A DNA stretch of 11,214 nt from an uncultured Oscillospiraceae bacterium (lineage in GTDB: Bacteria; Bacillota; Clostridia; Oscillospirales; Ruminococcaceae), in the NCBI GenBank assembly GCA_958403605.1, contig CATXYA010000017.1, positions 1 through 11,214 on the forward strand, written 5' to 3'. The position numbers were made by a program, and so were the translations under genes. The notes beneath the pieces are model-generated. The model made no database searches and was not told the origin of the DNA. It saw only the letters and a program-made list of their open reading frames with translations. Shown piece after piece: positions 839 through 11,214 of the stretch (position 1 is its first letter; each line of letters opens with the position of its first letter).

Positions 839-1861
839 TTATGCGGCGGCAGAGGCCGCTTGCTTTTTCAAAGCGTCTAGTTTAGCGGCCAGGCTGTCCT
901 TGGACACGGGGAAGTCTTCATAGGTGGATTCCATCCAGATGTCGGTCTTGCCGTCGCCGTCCTGGTCCTCCTGCAAAAGGAACCGGTTGCCGGCTTCGTC
1001 ATACTCGTATTGGGAGCGGCTAATAACGCTGCCATCTTCCACGTAGCCTTCCTTCCCTGTCTGACGGCCCTCGCTGTCGTAGGTATACGTCATGTACCAC
1101 CCCGTGCCTTCCTCGTCCGCGTAATATTGCTCGCGGATGCGGTTGCCCTGCTCGTCGTAGGTGTACTCCATGCGCCCGCCCAGGCTGCCGTCCGCGTTAT
1201 AATACTGCCAGCCGAGGTCTTGTCCGTTGGCGTCATAGAGGTGCTCCTTCCAATCTCCGGGCGCACCGCTTTGCGTATAATATTGTTCCCGTATTTGATT
1301 GCCCTTGTCGTCATACGTCCACTCCGTGCGGTTGAGAGGGGCGCCCTCCGCGTCGTAATTCTGCTGGCTGACCAGCTGGCCCTTGGCGTCGTAAGAGTTT
1401 TCGAAGCAATACTCCGCGTCCTCGCCGCCGCTAAAGTTGTAACAATTGCGCAGCAGCCTGCCCGTGCGGTCATAGGTGAATTCGATCCAAGTGATGAGCT
1501 CGCCGTCCGCCTGATACAACCCCTCGCGCTGGGTGATCTCACCATTCTCGCCTTCCCGGTAGGTGCATTTCCGCCCGCCGTCGGCTGTGCCGTCGGCATC
1601 ATAAAATTGAATGCTGAGCAGCGCGCCCGCATCGTCATAGGTGTAGTCGGTCCGGCTGACGAGCGTCCCGTCGCTGTCATAGGAAAGGGACTGCGTGCAC
1701 AGCCGGATGGTGACCGTCTTGGGCAGCAAGGCCCAAACCACGGCGCCCACCAATGCAAGCAGCAGCAAAACCGCCGCGAAGATCAGAAACCATTTTTTGT
1801 GCTGGGGGGCAGGGGATGTGGTCTCCATGGTGTTGGTGGCGGACATTTCGGTATCAGACAT
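839..1861 (-). CDS. Membrane-anchored RHS/YD-like repeat protein
   Basis: 340 residues, function unknown. Seen: a short polar N-terminus (1-21), one hydrophobic segment at about 24-46 (WFLIFAAVLLLLALVG...) after HKK, which suggests a type II signal anchor with the rest outside the cell, then a repeat domain at about 55-315. The repeats have the form Y-D-x-x-G-x-x, for example YDDKGNQI at 183, YDANGQDL at 209, YDEQGNRI at 235, YDSEGRQT at 261 and YDEAGNRF at 287. These are spaced exactly 26 residues apart, with a weaker half-repeat (YxxDG) between them. This matches the RHS/YD class of beta-strand repeats; MORN-like YwqK repeats are the alternative. Residues 299-307 (DQDGDGKTD) resemble a calcium-binding loop. 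There is no RHS core closure or C-terminal toxin domain, and the protein is far shorter than polymorphic toxins. Start: ATG at 1861-1859 with AAGGAGGG upstream and a promoter at 1885-1913. It is likely a single-gene unit that shares its far terminator region with metY. Confidence 0.85.
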   Translation of the reverse strand: MSDTEMSATNTMETTSPAPQHKKWFLIFAAVLLLLALVGAVVWALLPKTVTIRLCTQSLSYDSDGTLVSRTDYTYDDAGALLSIQFYDADGTADGGRKCTYREGENGEITQREGLYQADGELITWIEFTYDRTGRLLRNCYNFSGGEDAEYCFENSYDAKGQLVSQQNYDAEGAPLNRTEWTYDDKGNQIREQYYTQSGAPGDWKEHLYDANGQDLGWQYYNADGSLGGRMEYTYDEQGNRIREQYYADEEGTGWYMTYTYDSEGRQTGKEGYVEDGSVISRSQYEYDEAGNRFLLQEDQDGDGKTDIWMESTYEDFPVSKDSLAAKLDALKKQAASAAA

Positions 1862-1884
1862 CGCGCTTCCCTCCTTTTTTCTTT

Positions 1885-1913
1885 ATTATAAAGGGCTTAG
1901 CGCTGGAAGACAA
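1885..1913 (-). promoter_or_regulatory. Promoter of the RHS-like gene
   Basis: On the minus strand, TTGTCT (1913-1908), 17 bases, then a perfect TATAAT (1890-1885). The start of transcription would fall near 1878, leaving a short leader that holds the AAGGAGGG ribosome site. Found by eye only. Confidence 0.65.
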
Positions 1914-1926
1914 GCCCCGCGGCGCC

Positions 1927-1955
1927 TTGACAGCCCCCAGATGCTCTGATATACT
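1927..1955 (+). promoter_or_regulatory. Near-consensus sigma-A promoter for the MFS gene
   Basis: Perfect -35 TTGACA at 1927-1932, a 17-base spacer, and -10 TATACT at 1950-1955 (5 of 6 bases). Transcription should start near 1961-1963. It is one of the best promoters in the window, yet a terminator-like hairpin lies only about 25 bases downstream. Confidence 0.8.
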
Positions 1956-1968
1956 ACAAAAGAACCGA

Positions 1969-2070
1969 ATGAGGCGTTATGACTGCCCGCAAAATGCAGA
2001 TTTTGCGGGCGTTTTTTTGTCTTTTGCGGGAGCATGGCGCTCTCATCCACAGAGGGGAATTTGTGTATGA
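1969..2070 (+). CDS. Possible 33-residue leader peptide upstream of the MFS gene
   Basis: ATG at 1969, 33 codons (MRRYDCPQNADFAG... to RGICV), TGA at 2068-2070. The stop overlaps the MFS start as ATGA, the usual sign of translational coupling. The terminator-like hairpin 1985-2010 lies within the reading frame, so a ribosome on this ORF would change whether the hairpin forms. Weak points: the ATG is only about 6-8 bases after the predicted transcript start, no good ribosome site precedes it, and the peptide has no known relative. A second ATG at 1979 (GAGG at 1971-1974) opens another frame that runs past the MFS start. Treat as a candidate only. Confidence 0.35.
   Translation: MRRYDCPQNADFAGVFLSFAGAWRSHPQRGICV
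1985..2018 (+). terminator. Terminator-like hairpin in the MFS leader (candidate attenuator)
   Basis: GCCCGCAAAA (1985-1994) pairs perfectly over 10 bp with TTTTGCGGGC (2001-2010) around the 6-base loop TGCAGA, followed by seven T at 2012-2018. No gene on this strand ends upstream, so it is not a normal gene terminator. The 3' arm is repeated: TTTTGCGGG recurs at 2022-2030, after the T run, so the 5' arm (1986-1994) could pair with either copy. The second pairing would prevent the terminator. A short terminated RNA of about 57 nt is the expected default product. Confidence 0.7.
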
Positions 2071-3299
2071 AATTTATCCGGCAATATTTAGGCCTGCGGC
2101 GCGAATTATACATTGTTTTCTGGGGCCGCGTGGTCACCAATATGGGGGCGCTCATCTGGCCGATGATGACGCTGATCTTAAAAAGCAAGCTGGGCTTTTC
2201 CGCCTCGGAGATCGCGGGGCTGTTGCTGCTGCTGGGCTTCGCGCAGCTGCCCTGCACGCTCATCGGCGGCAAACTGGCGGACCGGTTCAATAAGCGCAAC
2301 ATCATCATCGTGTGCGACCTCGTCACCGTCATCAGCTATTTTATCTGCGCTTTTTTGCCCATGAGCCCCCATGTGATCTGGGTGCTGGCGCTGGCAGCCA
2401 TTTTTGCGCAGATGGAATGGCCCAGCTATGACGCGCTGGTGGCCGACCTGTCCACCTCGGCGGACCGGGAGCGGGCCTACAGCCTCAACTATCTAGGGGC
2501 CAACCTGGGCCTGGTGCTGGCGCCCACCCTCGGCGGCTTTCTGTTTGCGCAGCATCTGAACCTGGCGTTCCTCATCAGCAGCCTGGCCACGCTGTCCTCC
2601 ACGGTGCTGATTTTCCTGTTCATCAAGGATGTCACGCCCGCGCAGGACGATGCGCAGGCCGGCCATTACGAGCAGACCCAGGACGGCCAAAGCATCTGGC
2701 AGGTGCTGCGAGGCAACAAGCTGCTGCTGCTGTTTTTGCTGTGCGGCGCGGTGTGGCAGCTGGTATACAGCCAATTCAATTTCCTGCTGCCGCTCAATTT
2801 GGAGCAGCTGTACGGTGAACAGGGGGCCGTCTGGTTCGGCATGCTCACCAGCGTCAACGCCGTGGTGGTGATCGTGGGCACCCCGGTGCTCACGCGGTGT
2901 TTTTCCCACATGCGGGACGTGAACAAGCTGCTGGTGGGGCAGGGTCTGATCGTGGCGGGCTTTGCCGTGTATGCGCTGGTGCAGAACGTCCTGGCACTGT
3001 ACTTTGTCTCCATGGTGGTGTTCACGGTGGGCGAGGTGTTCGACACCCTGGGCAAGCAGCCGTATCTCACCCGGCGCATCCCGTCCTCGCACCGGGGGCG
3101 GTTTGCCTCCTTTGCCACAGTGTTCGGCGGGGCGTTCCAGCTGATGGGCCAGCAGGCGGTGGGGCAGATGGCCGATGCCTGGCCCATGCGGGCGGTGTGG
3201 GCCGTCATCGTGGCGCTGGGCGCGTGCAACGTGCTGGGCTATCTTTTGCTGCGGCGCAAGGACCGCGCCGCGTATCCGCTGCTTTATCGGGAACCATAA
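2067..3299 (+). CDS. Major facilitator superfamily transporter, probably efflux
   Basis: 410 residues with about 12 hydrophobic segments, the size and pattern of a 12-TM MFS permease in the cytoplasmic membrane. The best family mark is motif A in the loop after TM2, GGKLADRFNKRN at residues 67-78, with the expected G, D and R/K positions. A hydrophilic central loop at about 190-213 separates the two six-helix halves, followed by a second-half loop region near GTPVLTRCFSHMRDVNK. The substrate cannot be read from the sequence. The mix of motif A and a terminator leader resembles drug-efflux MFS genes, so a drug or metabolite exporter is inferred. Start: ATG 2067 is preferred over ATG 2034 because AGAGGGG lies at 2051-2057 with 9 bases spacing, and the start gives a normal N-terminus. 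It is a single gene between its own promoter and a terminator. Confidence 0.88.
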   Translation: MKFIRQYLGLRRELYIVFWGRVVTNMGALIWPMMTLILKSKLGFSASEIAGLLLLLGFAQLPCTLIGGKLADRFNKRNIIIVCDLVTVISYFICAFLPMSPHVIWVLALAAIFAQMEWPSYDALVADLSTSADRERAYSLNYLGANLGLVLAPTLGGFLFAQHLNLAFLISSLATLSSTVLIFLFIKDVTPAQDDAQAGHYEQTQDGQSIWQVLRGNKLLLLFLLCGAVWQLVYSQFNFLLPLNLEQLYGEQGAVWFGMLTSVNAVVVIVGTPVLTRCFSHMRDVNKLLVGQGLIVAGFAVYALVQNVLALYFVSMVVFTVGEVFDTLGKQPYLTRRIPSSHRGRFASFATVFGGAFQLMGQQAVGQMADAWPMRAVWAVIVALGACNVLGYLLLRRKDRAAYPLLYREP

Positions 3300-3382: not shown

Positions 3383-3407
3383 ATGGTACAGGGAAGGGGG
3401 AACGGCC

Positions 3408-3914
3408 ATGCAGGAAGTGGAACGCTTGTACCGCGCGTACCGGGACGATATCTACCGATATCTGTGCGGCCTGACCCATGACCCGGCCCTGGCCGAGGAC
3501 CTGCTGAGCGAGACCTTTTTGAAGGCGCTGCAGGGCCTGTCCCGCTTTTCCGGCGGGGCCAGTGTGAAGACATGGCTGTGCAGTATCGCGCGCCACGCCT
3601 GGATCGATGAGCTGCGCCGCCGCCGGCCCACCTTTTCTTACGACGATCTGCTGGCCCAGTATCTGGCCGACGAGACGGCAGACCCCGAGATCATCGAAGC
3701 GGAGCTGGATATCAAGGACTTGGCCGAGCGGGTGCGCCGGCTGCTGGCGACCCGCAAGCCGCCCGCCGGAGAGATCGTCCTCTTGCGGGCGCAGGGATAT
3801 TCCTTCGCCGAGATCGCTCAAAAATGCGGGATCTCCGAAAGCTCGGCCCGCACGCTCGACTTCCGCACACGGCATTGGCTGCGGGAGAACATGCAAAAGG
3901 AGGAACAGCCATGA
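3408..3914 (+). CDS. ECF-family RNA polymerase sigma factor
   Basis: 168 residues, normal for an ECF sigma factor, with only regions 2 and 4. Region 2 lies at about 5-75: LYRAYRDDIYRYLCGLTHD, then AEDLLSETFLKAL and VKTWLCSIARHAWIDELRRRR, which carry the core-binding and -10-recognition helices. Region 4 lies at about 105-165, with the helix-turn-helix YSFAEIAQKCGISESSARTL that reads the -35 element. GGGAAGGGGG at 3391-3400 is the ribosome site for ATG 3408. The stop overlaps the next ATG by 4 bases, and that gene encodes a zinc-finger membrane protein, the classic sigma/anti-sigma order. It should stay inactive at the membrane until a cell-envelope signal releases it. The exact ECF subgroup and signal cannot be named from sequence alone. 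Confidence 0.93.
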   Translation: MQEVERLYRAYRDDIYRYLCGLTHDPALAEDLLSETFLKALQGLSRFSGGASVKTWLCSIARHAWIDELRRRRPTFSYDDLLAQYLADETADPEIIEAELDIKDLAERVRRLLATRKPPAGEIVLLRAQGYSFAEIAQKCGISESSARTLDFRTRHWLRENMQKEEQP

Positions 3915-4504
3915 AACAAGGGATCGTGTGCGAGATCACCTGTGACGTCTGCCGCGACCTCATCCCCCTGGTGGTGGACGGCGTGGCCAGTGAGGACAGC
4001 GAAAGCTTAGTGCGGGAGCATACGGCCCACTGCGAGGCCTGCCGCGCCTACATGCAGGAGGGCGGCCCGGTGGACCTGCCCAGCCCGGACGATGTCAAGA
4101 TTCTGCACCGGCTGAAACGGCGCATGACGGTGTCGGCGCTGGTGTTCGCCGTCATCGGCGCCGCGCTGTGCCTGGCGCTGCGCTTCAGCGTTTACCTGAT
4201 GTGGTGGATGCCGGTGCTGGGCATGCTCAGCTATGTGCTGGCGCGCAAGCGCTGGTGGCTGGTGTCCGCGGGCGTCGGCGTGCTGGCGTTCCTGGGGAAC
4301 TTCTGCTGGAACGTTTGGGAAATGACCCGCTATGCGGACGGCTGGCTGATGGTAAAAAACAGCCTTTCCTGGACGCTGCAAAGCAGTTTTCACCAAGGCA
4401 TCCTGTATTTGGTGTTGGTGGCGCTGGGCGTCTGGGTGGCGGCGCTGCTGCACTTTGCTTTCAGCGGCCTGCACTGGCATAGAGGGAAGGAGGAGCGGTT
4501 ATGA
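3911..4504 (+). CDS. Zinc-finger (zf-HC2/ZAS-like) membrane anti-sigma factor
   Basis: 197 residues. The cytoplasmic N-terminus has CDVC at 11-14 and the anti-sigma zinc motif H-x3-C-x2-C as HTAHCEAC at 37-44; His37, Cys41 and Cys44, with an upstream Cys, are the likely zinc ligands. About residues 73-184 hold roughly four hydrophobic segments (about 74-97, 99-111, 115-133 and 163-184). Many anti-sigmas have a single helix and a large outer domain, but here almost nothing projects outside, so signal sensing may occur in the membrane or through the next gene. Start: ATG 3911, chosen over an upstream in-frame start because AAAAGGAGGAA lies just before it and it forms an ATGA overlap with the sigma gene. 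Inferred role: binds and holds the sigma factor encoded upstream. Confidence 0.85.
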   Translation: MKQGIVCEITCDVCRDLIPLVVDGVASEDSESLVREHTAHCEACRAYMQEGGPVDLPSPDDVKILHRLKRRMTVSALVFAVIGAALCLALRFSVYLMWWMPVLGMLSYVLARKRWWLVSAGVGVLAFLGNFCWNVWEMTRYADGWLMVKNSLSWTLQSSFHQGILYLVLVALGVWVAALLHFAFSGLHWHRGKEERL

Positions 4505-5403
4505 AACGGTCGTCGCTGTGGCCCATCAAACAGAATTGGCTCACCCGGCTGCTGGCCCTGGGCTTGGCGCTGCTCATCATCGTGGTGCTTTTTTTGGTGG
4601 TGGACCGTCAGGTGGGCAATCCGCTGGGTTGCTGGTATACGGAAAAAAAGATCGAGGCCCATTACCGGGCGTACCATCCCGGCGTCCCCTACGTGGTGGC
4701 GCCCGCCAAATTCACCTATGCCGACGGCCAGATGCGCTATGTCTGCCACATCTATTTGAAGGGCAGCCAGGATACGGGCTTTCTGGCGTATTTCAGAGAT
4801 GGCGCGGTATTGTCCACCGAGGCGGCGGAGACGTTGAGCGGCAACAATACTTACAACCGCTTCCGGCTGCGTCTCAACGAAGAGGCCCTGACGCCGGAGC
4901 TGCGGGCCCAATCGCGCCAGGGACCCTATGCCGTCAACGCCCTGCGGGCGGATTTCTATCCCGGCGAGCGGCAGATGGCGTTCGATTTGCAGGACCCTGT
5001 CTTTCAGGTGGACGCGGAATATGACCGCGATCATCTGCCGCTGCCCACGGTTCTGTGCGCGGAATTCCAGCCCGAAAGCGGCGGCGGCACCCAGGATAAG
5101 GACCTTGCCGCGCGGCTGCGCTGGCTGAAAGAGTTGGCGGAGGAAAACGGCCAAAAATTTGATTACTACTCTGTACAGTGGTATGACGGCGTGAGCTATC
5201 CCACGGCACAGGATGTTCCATCCCGTCTGATCACGCCGTCAAGGGAAGACGCGGAAGAGGACCCGCTGCTCCGCTATCTGGCAGACCTGCCGGCGGCGGA
5301 GAAGATCAGCTATTATCCGCCCAATGCGCTGTCTCAGCAAAAGGGCAGGCTGCTCTACTCCCAGCAATCGGTCTTTTTGCCCTGTGTGGATCACGAAGGA
5401 TAA
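4501..5403 (+). CDS. YfjL-like membrane-anchored protein, third gene of the sigma operon
   Basis: 300 residues. One membrane helix at about 15-34 follows a basic N-terminus, and the rest is probably outside the cell. Residues 39-125 (GNPLG..., then a Y/F-rich stretch, SQDTGFLAYFRDG and NNTYNRFRLRL) match my recollection of the YfjL-like family pattern (GNP, S-x-D-T-x-F, N-T-x-x-R) found in Firmicutes. That link is from memory and should be tested by profile search. The second half has no motif I recognise. Start: ATG 4501, with AAGGAGG at 4487-4493, overlapping the anti-sigma stop as ATGA, so the three genes are translationally coupled. Inferred role: an accessory or sensor of the sigma/anti-sigma pair, or a co-regulated envelope protein. 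It ends at TAA 5401-5403, just before a hairpin terminator. Confidence 0.75.
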   Translation: MKRSSLWPIKQNWLTRLLALGLALLIIVVLFLVVDRQVGNPLGCWYTEKKIEAHYRAYHPGVPYVVAPAKFTYADGQMRYVCHIYLKGSQDTGFLAYFRDGAVLSTEAAETLSGNNTYNRFRLRLNEEALTPELRAQSRQGPYAVNALRADFYPGERQMAFDLQDPVFQVDAEYDRDHLPLPTVLCAEFQPESGGGTQDKDLAARLRWLKELAEENGQKFDYYSVQWYDGVSYPTAQDVPSRLITPSREDAEEDPLLRYLADLPAAEKISYYPPNALSQQKGRLLYSQQSVFLPCVDHEG

Positions 5404-5412
5404 GACGAAGCT

Positions 5413-5463
5413 AAAAGTGAGGATGCCCTGCCAGATAGGACTATCCTCACTTTTGCTGTTTTT
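5413..5463 (+). terminator. Hairpin terminator of the sigma operon
   Basis: AAAAGTGAGGAT (5413-5424) pairs perfectly over 12 bp with ATCCTCACTTTT (5443-5454) around an 18-base loop. The T-rich tail GCTGTTTTT follows. The broken T run makes it less ideal than the other terminators here. It marks the left edge of the AT-rich island. Confidence 0.7.
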
Positions 5464-5503
5464 GGGGTAAGAAAAAAGTGTTTATTTTTGGTAATTATGC
5501 GTA

Positions 5504-5532
5504 TTTACGTTAATAATGGACCGTAGTAGAAT
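5504..5532 (+). promoter_or_regulatory. Candidate promoter of the small-protein island
   Basis: TTTACG at 5504-5509 (4 of 6 consensus bases), 17 bases, TAGAAT at 5527-5532 (5 of 6). It leaves a leader of roughly 85-90 bases before ATG 5627, in which I see no clear riboswitch or terminator. Confidence 0.45.
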
Positions 5533-5626
5533 ATCTATAGGGATAGTTAATCTCTTAAAAATTGTGCGAGGCGATTCCCGCGCTTTAGCCAACAGCTATG
5601 ACAACTTTATTAGAAAGGAGTACCTT

Positions 5627-5977
5627 ATGAAATTTCGTAAATTTATATCACTAATAATCAGTTTGCTGCTTTTTTCTGCTTTTGGTATCAATGTTTTCGC
5701 AAGCACACCTGAAGCCGTTCAAACTTTTAGCGAGGATGGGAGTGCTTTTACTGAAAAAGGGATAAGTTCAGAAACAAACTCACAAATTACAAGAGACCAG
5801 CGTAGTTATTGGAAAAGCGCTGTGGTTCAATCTTATAGCGAAAAAGGGAATCCTAGTTGGTCCGATTGGCCGCAGACCATCTACTATTCGGAACCGAATC
5901 CTTATGGCAGTGGAACAGCCCATGGTACGCTTTCTTTAGCTGGCTACACACATATACAAGAAATTGTACCTGGATGA
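5627..5977 (+). CDS. Small secreted protein, paralog of the 6511-6882 product, probably truncated by an in-frame TGA
   Basis: 116 residues as encoded. Residues 1-25 form a clear signal peptide (MKFRK, a hydrophobic core, VFA before S26), so the product is exported. The mature part starts STPEAVQ and carries KGIS at 44-47 and AHGTL at 98-102. The same two motifs occur in the same order in the protein at 6511-6882, with a short shared stretch before AHGTL (PQTIYYSEP here, PLEIYVTVP there). Start: ATG 5627, with AGAAAGGAG just upstream, preferred over an in-frame start at 5516 that would bury the signal peptide. The frame stops at TGA 5975-5977, directly after PG, but it continues for 15 similar codons to TAA at 6023-6025. 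Either the gene lost its C-terminal strand by a nonsense change, or the end differs naturally. The function is unknown. Confidence 0.75.
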   Translation: MKFRKFISLIISLLLFSAFGINVFASTPEAVQTFSEDGSAFTEKGISSETNSQITRDQRSYWKSAVVQSYSEKGNPSWSDWPQTIYYSEPNPYGSGTAHGTLSLAGYTHIQEIVPG

Positions 5978-6025
5978 CACCTATTTCAAGTTACTTATAC
6001 GGGCTATATGTATTACTACGATTAA
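5975..6025 (+). pseudogene. Stranded C-terminal tail of the 5627 gene beyond the in-frame TGA
   Basis: Reading on in the same frame after TGA gives HLFQVTYTGYMYYYD and then TAA. The paralog ends PGMYQGTYRGIVTAYLNDY at the matching place: both have PG, a TYxG step and a tyrosine-rich end. The tail therefore looks like the original C-terminus of the 5627 gene, now untranslated unless the stop is read through. Confidence 0.6.
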
Positions 6026-6045
6026 AACAGGCGTAGGTGGTTATT

Positions 6046-6495
6046 ATGGAAAACGTTTTTTTTAAAATCGCAAGTGTTTTTCTTGCTTCTTGCCTGCTTG
6101 TTTTTGGAGGTACAGGCTGCAATCAAAGAATAAGTGACGCCAATTCTTCTTCTGAAACTTCTACAGAGTTTATCCATGAAGTTCCGACTTCTCAAACGGA
6201 AGAGAACGTTCATGTTCAACTTGTGCTTCCCGATTCTATTTGTTTGGAGAAACCGGGGTCTACTTATCAGCTATCACCTATTATTGAACCTGACCTGCCC
6301 TGTTCTTTTGAGTTTTCTTGCTCTATCGCCGATGAACTTATTTCAATTGATGAACATGGCCTGATCACCTATGATTCTGAACTGAGTGGAACAGTGGAAG
6401 TTTATGTAAAGGGAACACTGGAAGATGGAAAGATCCTTAACGGGGAGGTACCCGTTCTGTGTGGGAATCTGATTGCAAAAAATTCCGAGTCATAA
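6046..6495 (+). CDS. Small lipoprotein with bacterial Ig-like domain
   Basis: 149 residues. The N-terminus has a hydrophobic signal (FFKIASVFLASCLLVFGG) ending in GTGC with Cys25, a probable lipobox, though Gly at -3 is unusual. A Ser/Thr/Glu-rich linker follows at about 26-50. Residues about 50-140 resemble a BIG2-type Ig-like domain: the run ISIDEHGLITYDSELSGTVEVYVKG fits the pattern of a value, 'xGxIT', then 'SGTVxVxVxG' strands. Such domains mediate surface adhesion or structural contacts; the partner is unknown. Start: ATG 6046 with AGGTGG at 6035-6040; a GTG at 6037 in the same frame is less likely because it overlaps that ribosome site. It lies 20 bases after the stranded tail and 15 bases before the next gene, so it is probably co-transcribed with the two secreted paralogs. 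Confidence 0.75.
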   Translation: MENVFFKIASVFLASCLLVFGGTGCNQRISDANSSSETSTEFIHEVPTSQTEENVHVQLVLPDSICLEKPGSTYQLSPIIEPDLPCSFEFSCSIADELISIDEHGLITYDSELSGTVEVYVKGTLEDGKILNGEVPVLCGNLIAKNSES

Positions 6496-6510
6496 AGGAA
6501 GGGGAAAATA

Positions 6511-6882
6511 ATGAAAAAAGCAATTTCTTTTTTAATTGTCTTGGTTTTTCTTTTCAGCTTTGGAGCAGTTGGTAGTTTTGCGGAATCACCTGAGGGAAGA
6601 AATTTAACATCAAGTGTAAATTTGTTAGAGGACGAAAAGGGGATTTCTCCCCGATGGGTGTATCAATTTGAGTATACAAAGTATCTTAGTGCTACAAGTG
6701 CCAATATGTTGCCCCTCGAAATTTATGTTACGGTTCCTTCTGGATATTATAATGCAGATGGAACCCCAATTATGGCACATGGTACGCTACCTTGCGTAGG
6801 GATTGCGTCTGGTTTCCCTTCTCCTGGTATGTATCAAGGAACATATCGAGGGATTGTAACTGCATATCTCAATGATTATTAA
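6511..6882 (+). CDS. Small secreted protein, intact paralog of the 5627 gene product
   Basis: 123 residues. Signal peptide at 1-24 (MKKAISFLIVLVFLFSFGAVGSFA, probable cut before E25). The mature part has an acidic lead (LLEDEKGIS at 38-46), then a Y/F-rich, probably beta-strand region, AHGTL at 89-93, and the end YQGTYRGIVTAYLNDY. Order and motifs match the protein at 5627. The acidic lead before KGIS may be a pro-segment removed outside the cell, but this is inference. AAGGAAGGGG precedes ATG 6511. No family I can name; it looks like one of the many uncharacterised short exported proteins of Clostridia. It is closed by the strong hairpin at 6887-6934. Confidence 0.75.
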   Translation: MKKAISFLIVLVFLFSFGAVGSFAESPEGRNLTSSVNLLEDEKGISPRWVYQFEYTKYLSATSANMLPLEIYVTVPSGYYNADGTPIMAHGTLPCVGIASGFPSPGMYQGTYRGIVTAYLNDY

Positions 6883-6886
6883 AAAT

Positions 6887-6934
6887 AAAAAGCCGGCGGC
6901 CTTGGAGGAATCTCCCAAAGGCCGCCGGCTTTTT
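6887..6934. terminator. Strong bidirectional terminator between the island and the LysR gene
   Basis: Left arm 6887-6903 (AAAAAGCCGGCGGCCTT) pairs over 17 bp with right arm 6918-6934. A small inner stem (6904-6907 with 6912-6915) closes the top. A on the left and T on the right flank the G-C core, so it can work in both directions, which suits convergent genes. Confidence 0.92.
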
Positions 6935-6954
6935 GGCGCGTAGTTCACCAAAGT

Positions 6955-7869
6955 CTATTTTTGACGCACCAGCTCGCTGATCTCGGCGCGCACGAAATCC
7001 AGGAAGGTGGAGGCGGGCTCGCTCATTTTGCCCTTCCACACCGCCGCGTCGCGGTACAGTGTGCCCGAGCGGCAGGGCCGCTGCACCAGTCCCTGGCGGG
7101 CCAGCACGGCGGCGGGCATGGGGCTGACCCACATATAGCTGCCCGCCACGCTGCGCAGCACGTCGAACTGTCCGGCGCGGTCATAGACCGCGATCTCTCC
7201 GCCCGCCGCCGTCTGCGGCGCGCTGTCGGCCCCGTCCTGCGGGCCCATGGGGGCAAAGTCCCCGTGCACCAGGCGGGGATAGGCCGCCAGCCGGGAGAAG
7301 GGGATCTCCTCCAAATGCGCCAGGGGATGCGCCTCGTGCATCAGCAGGGCCATGCTGAACTCCCACAGCGGCGCCTGGTGCAGGCCGTGGCCCAACACGG
7401 TGCTTTCAAAATAGGCGGCGTCGCGCCGCTCGTAGCGCACGATGCCCAGCTCCGCCTCCTCCAGGGAGACGGCCTCCAGGGTGGCGGCGGTGTTCGTCTC
7501 GCGGTAGCGCAGGTGCATGGGCGCGGCGGCATAGCGTTTGGCCCAGCGGCTGAACGCGTCCGCGATATAGCTGGCGCGGGGCACGCAGGCGGAAAAGCGC
7601 AGCTCGCCGTCCTCCTGGGGATGGTACATGGCCGTCAGGCTGTCCATCTGCTCCAGGATGGTGCGGGCGTAGATCAAAAATTCCGCGCCCACCGACGTGG
7701 GCTCCACGCCGCGGGCCGTGCGGCGGAACAGCGGCCGCCCGATCTCGTTTTCCAGCTCCCGCAGGCTTTTGGAGAGGTTGGGCTGGCCCATATACAGCCG
7801 CCCCGCGGCCTTGTTGATGGAGCCGCACTCCGCCACCGTGACGGCGTACCGCAGCTGCTGAAGGTCCAT
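6955..7869 (-). CDS. LysR-type transcriptional regulator
   Basis: 304 residues, the normal LysR length. The N-terminal winged helix-turn-helix (about 1-60) shows the family pattern CGSINKAAGRLYMGQPNLSK, then LRELENEIGRPLFRR and TSVGAEFL. A linker helix and a periplasmic-binding-like effector domain (about 88-295) follow. Start: ATG 7869-7867, because GAGG lies 8 bases upstream; a GTG three codons earlier overlaps that site. It is divergent from the alcohol dehydrogenase gene and shares with it a perfect palindrome in the promoter region, so it likely controls that gene and itself. The effector cannot be read from sequence; an aldehyde, alcohol or other redox metabolite would fit the context. 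Stop TAG at 6957-6955. Confidence 0.93.
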   Translation of the reverse strand: MDLQQLRYAVTVAECGSINKAAGRLYMGQPNLSKSLRELENEIGRPLFRRTARGVEPTSVGAEFLIYARTILEQMDSLTAMYHPQEDGELRFSACVPRASYIADAFSRWAKRYAAAPMHLRYRETNTAATLEAVSLEEAELGIVRYERRDAAYFESTVLGHGLHQAPLWEFSMALLMHEAHPLAHLEEIPFSRLAAYPRLVHGDFAPMGPQDGADSAPQTAAGGEIAVYDRAGQFDVLRSVAGSYMWVSPMPAAVLARQGLVQRPCRSGTLYRDAAVWKGKMSEPASTFLDFVRAEISELVRQK

Positions 7870-7922
7870 TTCACACACCTCACAACAATTAGTTATGCTT
7901 TTTTGAGATAACTCTTATTCTT

Positions 7923-8057: not shown

Positions 8058-9269
8058 ATGGGTCGTTTTACTTTACCGCGTGATCTGTATCATGGCAAGG
8101 GCTCTTTGGAGGAGCTGAAAAACCTGACCGGCAAAAAAGCGATGGTCGTTGTGGGCGGCGGCAGCCTGAAGCGTTTCGGCTTCCTGGACCGCGTCGTCAG
8201 CTACTTAAAAGAAGCGGGCATGGAAGTGGAGCTGTTTGAAGGCGTGGAGCCCGATCCTTCCGTGACCACCGTCATGAAGGGCGCCGAGGCCATGCGCAAA
8301 TTTGAGCCGGATTGGATCGTCGCCATGGGCGGCGGCAGCCCCATCGACGCGGCCAAAGCCATGTGGGCGTTCTACGAGTACCCGGAAGTGACCTTCGAGC
8401 AGCTGTGCGTGCCCTTCGGCTTCCCCACGCTGCGCACGAAAGCGCACTTCTGCGCCATCCCCTCCACCTCCGGCACGGCAACCGAGGTCACCGCGTTCGC
8501 AGTTATCACCGATTATGACAAGGGCATCAAATATCCCTTGGCCGACTTCAACATCACCCCGGACGTGGCCATTGTCGACCCCGAGCTGGCAGAGAAAATG
8601 CCCCCGAAGCTGACGGCCCACACCGGCATGGACGCCATGACCCACGCCATCGAGGCCTATGTGTCCACCCTGCACTGCAACTACACCGATCCGCTGGCCC
8701 TGCATGCCATCAAGATGATCCACGACGATCTGAAGAAATCCTACGACGGCGACATGGAAGCCCGCGACCGCATGCATGACGCCCAGTGCCTGGCCGGCAT
8801 GGCGTTCTCCAACGCGCTGCTGGGCATCGTGCACTCCATGGCCCACAAGACCGGCGCGGCCTTCTCCGGCGGCCACATCATCCACGGCGCGGCCAACGCG
8901 ATGTACCTGCCGAAGGTCATCAAGTTCAACGCCAAAAACCCCGAGGCGGCCGAGCGCTATGCCGAGATCGCCCGCTTCATCAATTTGCCGGGCAATACCA
9001 CCGAGGAGCTGGTGGACGCGCTGATCGCCGAGCTGCGCAGCATGAACCAGCAGCTCAACATCCCCCTGTCCATCCAGAACTACGGCGAGGCCGGCGTGAT
9101 CGCCGACAAGAGCATCATCGACGAAGCCGAGTACAAAGAGAAGCTGTCCAGTGTGGCGGAACTGGCCATCGGGGATGCCTGCACGGGTTCCAACCCCCGT
9201 CAGCCCAGCCAGGAAGAGATGGAGAAATTGCTGCTTGCCGTGTACTACGACAAAGACATCGATTTCTAA
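8058..9269 (+). CDS. Iron-containing (group III) alcohol dehydrogenase
   Basis: 403 residues. Reversible NAD(P)-dependent oxidation of an alcohol to an aldehyde, in the cytoplasm. Nucleotide-binding motif GGGSPIDAAK at 91-100; the second family motif PSTSGTATEVTAFAVIT at 135-151. The predicted metal ligands Asp192, His196, His259 and His273 have exactly the spacing known for FucO (196/200/263/277), so the site is complete. Closest by eye to butanol or propanediol-type dehydrogenases, but substrate and cofactor choice cannot be settled here. Start: ATG 8058, with GGGAGG at 8042-8047; an earlier in-frame ATG at 8040 overlaps that site. It is divergent from the LysR gene, which likely controls it, and upstream of nfnAB on the same strand, past a large hairpin. 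In fermentation it would dispose of reducing power as alcohol or draw it in. Confidence 0.93.
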   Translation: MGRFTLPRDLYHGKGSLEELKNLTGKKAMVVVGGGSLKRFGFLDRVVSYLKEAGMEVELFEGVEPDPSVTTVMKGAEAMRKFEPDWIVAMGGGSPIDAAKAMWAFYEYPEVTFEQLCVPFGFPTLRTKAHFCAIPSTSGTATEVTAFAVITDYDKGIKYPLADFNITPDVAIVDPELAEKMPPKLTAHTGMDAMTHAIEAYVSTLHCNYTDPLALHAIKMIHDDLKKSYDGDMEARDRMHDAQCLAGMAFSNALLGIVHSMAHKTGAAFSGGHIIHGAANAMYLPKVIKFNAKNPEAAERYAEIARFINLPGNTTEELVDALIAELRSMNQQLNIPLSIQNYGEAGVIADKSIIDEAEYKEKLSSVAELAIGDACTGSNPRQPSQEEMEKLLLAVYYDKDIDF

Positions 9270-9290
9270 ATCCACACTAGCCGTTTGAGA

Positions 9291-9367
9291 GCGAAGCTAC
9301 CTACAAGCAGTCTTTCGCGGGCCATGTGCCCGCGGGAGGCTGCTTCTCGTGCAGTTTCGCTTTTTTT
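9291..9367 (+). terminator. Long hairpin with T run between the alcohol dehydrogenase and nfnA
   Basis: An inner stem of 18 pairs, including four G-U pairs, joins 9305-9322 to 9328-9345 around the 5-base loop CATGT. An outer stem joins GCGAAGCT (9291-9298) to AGTTTCGC (9353-9360) with one wobble, and seven T follow at 9361-9367. This is a terminator form, but the stem is much longer than usual and nfnA begins only 24 bases after the T run with no clear promoter between, so it may act as a partial terminator or attenuator. Confidence 0.75.
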
Positions 9368-9390
9368 GAAAATAGTAACGGAGGAAGAGT

Positions 9391-10233
9391 ATGTTCAAGA
9401 TTTTGGAGAAACAGGCGCTGAACCCGACGGTGACAAAAATGGTCATCGAGGCGCCGCTGGTAGCGAAGAAAGCAGAACCGGGCCAGTTCATCATTTACCG
9501 TGCGTCCGAGGACGGTGAGCGCGTCCCCTTGACCATTGCGGACTATGACCGCGAGCAGGGCACCATCACCATCATTTTCCAGATCGTCGGCGCCTCCACC
9601 ATGGAGCTGAACGCCCTGAATGTGGGCGACCAGCTGGTGGACTTCGTGGGCCCCCTGGGCACCCCCAGCCATCTGGACGGCCTGAAAAAAGTGGCCGTCG
9701 TGGGCGGCGGCGTGGGCTGTGCCATCGCGTACCCCACCGCCAAAAAGCTGCATGAGCTGGGTGCCGAGGTGCACTCCATCATCGGCTTCCGCAATAAGGA
9801 CCTGGTGATCCTGGAGCAGGAGTTCGAGGCTGTGTCCAACAAGGTGGCCAAAATGTCCGACGACGGCACTTGGGGCGAAAAGGGCCTTGTCACCAACGCG
9901 CTGGAGCAGCTGATCCTGGCGGGCAACCAGTATGACGAGGTCATCGCCATCGGCCCGCTGGTGATGATGAAGTTTGTCTGCCAGCTCACCAAAAAGTACA
10001 ATCTCAAAACCACCGTTTCCATGAACCCCATCATGATCGACGGCACGGGCATGTGCGGCGGCTGCCGCCTCACCGTGGGCGGCCAGACCAAGTTTGCCTG
10101 CGTGGACGGCCCCGACTTTGACGGCCATGAGGTGGATTTCGACGAGGCGATGCACCGCGGCGGCATGTACCGCGACTTTGAGGCGCATGCCCGGGAAGCC
10201 ACGTGCAACCTGCTGAACAAGGAGGTCAAGTAA
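9391..10233 (+). CDS. nfnA: NfnA: ferredoxin-NADP+ reductase subunit alpha (small subunit of NfnAB)
   Basis: 280 residues, matching the family size. Small subunit of NADH-dependent reduced ferredoxin:NADP+ oxidoreductase, a soluble flavin-based electron-bifurcating complex. Residues 1-95 form the FAD-binding beta barrel with ERVPLTIAD at 43-51; GGGVGCAIAYP at 105-115 is the dinucleotide-binding loop. DGTGMCGGCR at 217-226 with Cys222, Cys225 and Cys237 carries the [2Fe-2S] cluster; known NfnA uses an Asp as fourth ligand and Asp217 is the likely one. FACVDGPDFDGHEVDFDE is also typical. GGAGGAAGAG precedes ATG 9391. The next gene, 2 bases on, is the partner subunit. Dihydroorotate dehydrogenase PyrK is related, but the NfnB neighbour decides the call. 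Older annotations use SudB or 'sulfide/dihydroorotate dehydrogenase-like FAD/NAD-binding protein'. Confidence 0.92.
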   Translation: MFKILEKQALNPTVTKMVIEAPLVAKKAEPGQFIIYRASEDGERVPLTIADYDREQGTITIIFQIVGASTMELNALNVGDQLVDFVGPLGTPSHLDGLKKVAVVGGGVGCAIAYPTAKKLHELGAEVHSIIGFRNKDLVILEQEFEAVSNKVAKMSDDGTWGEKGLVTNALEQLILAGNQYDEVIAIGPLVMMKFVCQLTKKYNLKTTVSMNPIMIDGTGMCGGCRLTVGGQTKFACVDGPDFDGHEVDFDEAMHRGGMYRDFEAHAREATCNLLNKEVK

Positions 10234-10235
10234 TC

Positions 10236-11214
10236 ATGCCTAACATGGATCCGAAAAAATGTCCCATGCCCGTACAGGACCCCAATGTCCGCAACAAAAA
10301 CTTCTACGAGGTGGCCCTGGGCTATACTTATGAGATGGCGGTGAACGAGGCCAAGCGCTGCCTGCACTGCAAAACCAAGCCCTGTGTGTCCGGCTGCCCG
10401 GTGGGCATCGATATCCCCGGCTTTATCTCCAAAGTGGCGGAAGAGGATATGGAGGGCGCCTACCAGGTGCTGTCCGCTTCCTCCGCGCTGCCCGCCGTGT
10501 GCGGCCGCGTCTGCCCCCAGGAGAACCAGTGCGAGGGCAAATGCGTGCGCGGCATCAAGGCCGAGAGCGTGGGCATCGGCCGTTTGGAGCGCTTCGTGGC
10601 CGATTGGCACCGCGAGCACAACACCGAAAAACCGCAGATGCCCGCCGCCAACGGCCACAAGGTGGCTGTCATCGGCTCCGGCCCCAGCGGCCTGACCGCC
10701 GCCGGCGATCTGGCGAAGCTGGGCTACAAGGTCTCGATCTATGAGGCGCTGCACACGCCCGGTGGCGTGCTGGTGTACGGCATCCCCGAGTTCCGTCTGC
10801 CCAAAGAGATCGTCCGCAAGGAGATCGACGGCCTGCGGGAGATCGGCGTGGACGTGGAGACCGACGTGGTCATCGGCAAGACCATCACCATCGACGAGCT
10901 GTTCGAAATGGGCAACGAGGCCGTGTTCATCGGCTCCGGCGCCGGTCTGCCCCGCTTTATGGGCATCCCCGGTGAAAGCCTGAACGGCGTGTACTCCGCC
11001 AACGAGTTCCTCACCCGCATCAACCTGATGAAGGCGTATCTGCCCGGTTCCAAGACCCCCATTCAGCAATCCAAAAACGTGGCTATCGTCGGCGGCGGCA
11101 ACGTCGCCATGGACGCCGCGCGCTGCGCCAAACGCCTGGGCGCCGAGAACGTGTACATCGTGTACCGCCGCAGCATGGACGAGCTGCCCGCCCGAAAAGA
11201 AGAGGTGGAGCACG
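10236..11214 (+). CDS. nfnB: NfnB: NADPH-dependent glutamate synthase small-chain homolog, 3' end outside window
   Basis: 326 codons are present and the frame runs off the window end; the family is about 465 residues. The large, bifurcating subunit of NfnAB holds two [4Fe-4S] clusters and the FAD where electrons split between NADPH and ferredoxin. Seen: the Cys-rich N-terminal domain with CLHCKTKPCVSGCP at 42-55 and further Cys at 89, 93, 99 and 103; the FAD motif VIGSGPSGL at 145-153 with GGVLVYGIPEFRLP at 176-189; and the NADPH-site motif GGGNVAMDAAR at 286-296. Start: ATG 10236, with GGAGGT at 10221-10226, two bases after the nfnA stop. Glutamate synthase beta chain (GltD) has the same fold, but pairing with nfnA and the lack of a large GltB gene here favour NfnB. 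No frame break is seen in the part present. Confidence 0.92.
   Translation, partial: MPNMDPKKCPMPVQDPNVRNKNFYEVALGYTYEMAVNEAKRCLHCKTKPCVSGCPVGIDIPGFISKVAEEDMEGAYQVLSASSALPAVCGRVCPQENQCEGKCVRGIKAESVGIGRLERFVADWHREHNTEKPQMPAANGHKVAVIGSGPSGLTAAGDLAKLGYKVSIYEALHTPGGVLVYGIPEFRLPKEIVRKEIDGLREIGVDVETDVVIGKTITIDELFEMGNEAVFIGSGAGLPRFMGIPGESLNGVYSANEFLTRINLMKAYLPGSKTPIQQSKNVAIVGGGNVAMDAARCAKRLGAENVYIVYRRSMDELPARKEEVEH

Follow-up and report, generated by a model that had tools for sequence, protein, structure and literature searches.

Sec-exported bacteriocins of the lactococcin 972 type belong to a family accompanied by a membrane protein and an ABC transporter, and in some lantibiotic systems lipoprotein immunity factors protect the producers; most pore-forming bacteriocins are not acidic. 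Here we describe a locus in which two related secreted proteins, P1 and P3, have a Big_2-like surface protein, P2, between them within a foreign-looking block (positions 5464-6886) of an 11,214-base contig, the whole of which we refer to as the window (Table 1). The evidence supports this description; that the genes form a self-contained system, as a sequence-only reading of the same DNA had suggested, is not established. We regard the block as a strain-specific operon of exported orphans, probably acquired, and as a common kind of thing. The unit of P1, P3, and P2 is real and foreign-looking, and one of its exported proteins, P1, is apparently broken.

Table 1. Features of the AT-rich block and its borders (positions are those of the window)
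Feature	Position	Strand	Description
P1	5627-5977	+	ORF; small secreted protein, 116 aa as read, apparently cut by in-frame TGA; P3 paralog
Same-frame continuation of P1 past its stop	5978-6025	+	Translation; resembles P3 tail
P2	6046-6495	+	ORF, 149 aa; probable lipoprotein, divergent Big_2-like domain
P3	6511-6882	+	ORF, 123 aa; small secreted P1 paralog, intact
Terminator-like hairpin after the upstream ECF-sigma gene run	5413-5454	+	12-nt perfect inverted repeat
Bidirectional terminator-like hairpin between P3 and the convergent lysR gene	6887-6934	.	17-nt perfect inverted repeat
Possible sigma-70 promoter of the cassette (weak)	5504-5532	+	Consensus scan, 9/12 matches

The three short genes had been read as all exported, and this agrees with three co-directional ORFs that carry export signals, seen by eye in P1 and P3 and as a broad lipobox match in P2. 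Alternative starts appear in the ORF list for P1 (5516) and P2 (6037); the best start for P1 is 5627, with a ribosome-binding-site-like AAAGGAG a few bases upstream, and each of the three ATG codons has a purine-rich stretch 5′ of it, the one at P2 being weaker than the strong ones at P1 and P3. Only 15 bases separate the P2 stop from the P3 ATG, and the P2 ATG lies 20 bases from the TAA that closes the full P1 frame and 68 bases from the P1 TGA. Terminators had been placed on both sides of the block, and hairpins are indeed found there: the upstream one (5408-5472) folds at -23.6 kcal/mol (z -3.3) and the downstream one (6880-6945) at -38.4 kcal/mol on the + strand (z -5.4) and -37.6 kcal/mol on the - strand, with none of 200 shuffles as good in either case, and a simple consensus scan listed neither hairpin as a + strand terminator. 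A sigma-70 consensus scan of 5300-7100 gave six sites, compared with 3.1 expected in shuffles. We infer cotranscription of P1, P2, and P3, as well as Sec export and lipid anchoring.

The block differs sharply from its surroundings in base composition, as had been noted from the letters. It is 39.1% GC, compared with 61.1% across the rest of the window, and GC3 is 0.30 in P1, 0.32 in P2, and 0.27 in P3, against 0.75-0.91 across nine flanking genes; flanking stretches of 1423 bases, sampled at 50-base steps, span 56.6-64.0% GC, and the best-scoring AT-rich segment covers 5400-6891. AT-rich islands of this kind are uncommon, not unique, in this group, because 72 of 3852 stretches of block size in the Subdoligranulum variabile record OY725846.1 are at ≤40% GC. 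Seven islands of ≤42% GC in that record, with GC comparable to that of the block, have contents that include recombinase, glycosyltransferase-like, and ABC-type proteins (by eye); they differ from the block in carrying mostly longer genes (by eye, of exopolysaccharide, recombinase, and transporter types), and that record as a whole yielded no relative of P1, P2, or P3.

We infer that this accessory block was probably laterally acquired. Several observations count against acquisition. There is no visible vehicle: Pfam and/or NCBIfam scans of the 12 main genes on the contig revealed neither an integrase nor a transposase, and the window has no tRNA and no Rfam match. Relaxed selection is an alternative route to low GC, and relatives of the Big_2-like domain of P2 were detected in the genus set of G036, so P2 itself may not be foreign to this clade. 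As for signs of an integrative mobile element, no direct repeat of at least 8 bases is common to 5380-5490 and 6861-6960; an AT-rich inverted repeat between these two regions (15/18) was equalled by 2 of 300 shuffles. Because the contig stops at 11,214 bases, the block may belong to an element larger than the window.

The neighbouring genes, which appear to be commonplace metabolic and regulatory ones, place the block in a slot whose contents differ between relatives. On one side are the end of an O-acetylhomoserine sulfhydrylase-type gene and genes for a YD/RHS-repeat protein, an MFS transporter, an ECF sigma factor, a zf-HC2 protein, and a weakly YfjL-like protein; on the far side are a LysR regulator, an iron-type alcohol dehydrogenase, and a sulfide/dihydroorotate dehydrogenase-like FAD/NAD-binding protein, and a conserved stretch, which we take to be glutamate-synthase-type, reaches the contig end (11,214). 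OY725846.1 is the nearest record in the plasmid collection, with 83% identity over 27% of the window (8058-11214), and the gene order common to S. variabile is sulfhydrylase, ECF sigma, zf-HC2, YfjL-like, the slot, LysR, alcohol dehydrogenase, and FAD/NAD-binding protein. There the slot (L006, 11456-13610) is occupied by another LysR-type gene, the second in the region, and by two genes that look transporter-like (chromate-type, by eye), with local GC of 54-66%. Since the syntenic slot contains other genes at normal GC, the slot between the ECF-sigma run and the lysR/alcohol-dehydrogenase region is variable and the block is accessory. The block is thus absent from the syntenic S. variabile locus, rather than present in all relatives with the composition normal for the genome.

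The ECF sigma, zf-HC2, and weakly YfjL-like run (3408-5403) is kept in S. variabile (L006, 9379-11388) at 65, 39, and 40% identity, and a more distant copy is found in genome G320 (43, 35, and 27%); the YfjL-like protein had one match among 391 class genomes. The YD-repeat and MFS genes (839-3299) are unmatched in the syntenic S. variabile stretch, in which the sulfhydrylase and ECF sigma genes lie about 150 bases apart, and this part of the window is a second variable slot. We note that OY725846.1 is filed as S. variabile 'plasmid 12' (386,527 bases); because metabolic genes there are syntenic with the window, it may be chromosomal sequence or a chromid rather than an ordinary plasmid. Window DNA from 3400-7900 had no match in the 42-genome set of G036, a weak absence because the flanking genes are unmatched there too.

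Both P1 and P3 have signal-peptide-like starts (by eye), and comparison of their sequences indicates that they are diverged paralogs. As read, the mature parts share a short core, with a score equalled by 65 of 5000 shuffles; when the parts after KGIS are compared with an X at the P1 stop, the local score is reached by 1 of 5000 shuffles and the global score by 25 of 5000, and the local alignment extends almost to the P3 end. The P1 stop is an in-frame TGA (5975-5977), followed by 15 more codons in frame (5978-6022) and then TAA, and these codons align collinearly with the P3 end. The post-stop tail scores 27 against the last 30 residues of P3 (143 of 5000 shuffles), compared with 12 and 16 in the other two frames; against the whole mature P3, its score is reached by 387 of 5000 shuffles, so that, taken alone, the stretch is weak evidence. 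Because the same-frame codons match the P3 end, P1 most likely represents a truncated copy, unless the TGA itself is a sequence error. Of the features that had been listed as common to the outer genes, the P1 tail lies past the TGA stop. With P1 interrupted, it is doubtful that this strain needs both paralogs.

Neither paralog could be placed in a described family, as the sequence-only reading had anticipated. P3 matched no Pfam or NCBIfam family at E ≤ 1, and P1 matched no Pfam family and had NCBIfam matches (E 0.025-0.094) that were all under the cut-off. The top NCBIfam match, to a sortase-dependent surface protein family (residues 1-58, E 0.025, 15.1 bits against a cut-off of 47), was taken as signal-peptide similarity. 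Another, to 'SAR2788 family putative toxin', spans residues 5-59, of which a good part is signal peptide, and scores 12.5 bits where the cut-off is 50 (E 0.093); it was taken as chance. No Pfam or NCBIfam model reached its cut-off with P1, P2, or P3 and PADLOC gave no match; for P1 and P3 this includes the curated models of known bacteriocin and toxin families in Pfam, NCBIfam, and PADLOC.

Searches for homologs gave a similar picture. In a collection of 5.8 billion proteins, P1 returned nothing but itself at E ≤ 1, and P3 returned three candidates, none at E ≤ 0.001. The search did not recover P3 itself, although P1 and P2 from the same contig are present, which suggests that gene callers skipped P3 and can miss such proteins; the absence of called P1 and P3 relatives is therefore weaker than it looks, and P3 relatives may never have been called as genes. 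Exact peptide patterns for P3 in genome contigs led only to locus L001, where the match covers residues 1-30, the signal peptide, and the ORF is unrelated. Viral contigs had no match to P1, P3, the P2 relative P0003, or models A1, A2, and A3; plasmids had none to P1 or P3 (protein) or to the block DNA, and phages had none to P3 (protein) or to the block DNA.

Model A1 matched 23 places in 21 of 400 family genomes (E 3e-6 to 0.008), and these were rejected as relatives: 22 begin at model positions 1-4, in the signal peptide, and belong to open frames 165 to 2421 aa long, and the remaining one (model positions 21-79) is broken by two stops. The mature model A3, run over 57 sequences that include the 23 A1 loci, found only P1 and P3 of the window (next best E 0.028), and it had no match at E ≤ 0.05 in 245 order genomes. 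Three A3 matches in the 42 genus genomes (E 0.15-0.22) were judged chance, one being largely antisense to a longer ORF and two interrupted, and the 386,527 bases of OY725846.1 contain no P1 or P3 relative (best E 0.23). In the collections searched, P1 and P3 thus appear to be without known relatives beyond signal-peptide or chance-level matches.

P2 is a probable membrane-anchored lipoprotein, to judge from a lipobox that matches the broad PS51257-style pattern and leaves the stricter G+LPP pattern unmatched. Its only close relative in the protein collection, P0003, is 66% identical over the whole length, occurs on two contigs, the longer of 48,774 bases, and matches neither pattern. That P2 carries a BIG2-like domain, as had been proposed, received no direct Pfam call: PF02368 (Big_2) was matched by P2 at neither E ≤ 1 nor, for the mature protein, E ≤ 10, nor by P0003, and the Pfam match obtained was PKD_3 (E 0.075), under the cut-off. 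The proposal is supported indirectly, because P2 aligns to domains that Pfam does call Big_2. P0003 gave two weak matches in the 42 genus genomes, L044 and L045, both Big_2 domains of larger proteins, and these hit PF02368 at 35.2 and 38.6 bits (cut-off 22.8); the C-terminal part of P2 aligns to them with local scores of 71 and 59, reached by 0 of 3000 shuffles each. P2 thus probably carries a divergent Big_2-like domain.

The L044 and L045 proteins, from two genomes of the genus set, have a zinc ribbon, a membrane segment, Big_2 (Pfam), and an SH3-like part, the features other than Big_2 being assigned by eye. These looser relatives of the P2 domain sit within larger, unrelated proteins. AlphaFold gave a poor model for P2 (mean pLDDT 46.5) that contributes little, with weak Foldseek matches (best E 5.4e-3) that include Ig-like and Big_2 structures. 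A single P2 match among 400 family genomes was set aside as a low-complexity lipoprotein leader. No P2 relative was found in OY725846.1 (386,527 bases) and no protein match in plasmids; phages gave two records of one Staphylococcus phage, to a tail protein at E 0.1.

These distributions bear on whether the trio is a system. No full homologs with unrelated neighbours were seen, and in the collections searched neither a second example of the P1-P2-P3 trio nor repeated co-occurrence was found. The small exported genes could be merely co-located in an AT-rich island in which P1 is already decaying, which would account for the in-frame stop, for the lack of a second example of the trio in the collections searched, and for P2 having a relative in P0003 whereas P1 and P3 have none. 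We judge this somewhat unlikely: the paralogs flank P2 in one tight co-directional unit, and the missing relatives are to be read in light of a collection that has P1 and P2 and not P3.

The best explanation, which we hold to be slightly better than an even bet, is that the block is a laterally acquired accessory operon of exported proteins. This AT-rich operon, probably gained by horizontal transfer, would sit in a variable slot of a gut bacterium akin to Subdoligranulum and have three exported products: P1 and P3, small, secreted, and predicted mostly beta, and P2, a probable Big_2-like Ig lipoprotein between them. We favour the operon because of the GC and GC3 contrast, the tight spacing, the purine-rich stretches, the hairpins at the ends, the P1/P3 paralogy, and the Big_2-like domain of P2, and because a different gene set of normal GC fills the S. 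variabile slot and relatives of P1, P2, and P3 are absent from that record. The functional step is more tentative. As the most likely mechanism, though rather doubtful in itself, P3 (and P1 before its truncation) would act outside the cell, and P2 would be its anchored partner, holding or binding P3 (formerly P1) at the membrane and so displaying the secreted protein or protecting the producer. The functional readings overlap, and the likelihoods that we attach to them are not a strict partition.

P3 is predicted to be mostly beta after the signal peptide (mean pLDDT 63.5). P1 and P3 might be small beta-domain binders of glycans or of the cell envelope, with P2 serving as an anchored module for adhesion. 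Such a surface or matrix role would suit the Big_2-like P2 and mature parts rich in aromatic residues (11 of 90 in P1 as read, 13 of 97 in P3). We consider it unlikely, since no model for carbohydrate binding, S-layers, or adhesins reached its cut-off with P1 or P3, and the P3 model had no convincing match among solved folds. A more ambitious proposal, which we think very unlikely, is that P1 and P3 define an undescribed family of small, secreted, mostly beta proteins (core KGIS, IY, AHGTL, Q-TY-G); together with a Big_2-like lipoprotein dedicated to it, this family would form a mobile module for surface functions or antagonism, specific to particular strains of gut Ruminococcaceae. Were the trio shown to be a module, the accessory gene repertoire of gut Bacillota would gain a secreted family so far unrecognised.

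Compared with Big_2 proteins, P2 aligns through its C-terminal part to the Pfam-called domains of L044 and L045, and Big_2 structures are among the weak fold matches of its low-confidence model; it differs from those proteins in being short, with one such domain and no direct Big_2 Pfam match. A bacteriocin-like antagonism, in which P3 (formerly P1) would be a Sec-exported antagonist and P2 the lipoprotein that protects the producer, is quite unlikely. The absence of any model at cut-off for the three proteins and of a PADLOC match weighs against it, as do the acidity of P1 as read and P3 (pI 4.7 and 4.8) and a block that has neither a transporter nor a modification gene. In favour of antagonism, small secreted paralogs adjoin a probable lipoprotein within an accessory AT-rich block, and the orphan status of P1 and P3 would suit fast-evolving competition genes. 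P1 and P3 differ from the lactococcin 972-type bacteriocins in having no Pfam match and none above the NCBIfam cut-off, and their block lacks the accompanying membrane protein and ABC transporter; they resemble them in being small, signal-peptide-bearing, and, by prediction, mostly beta.
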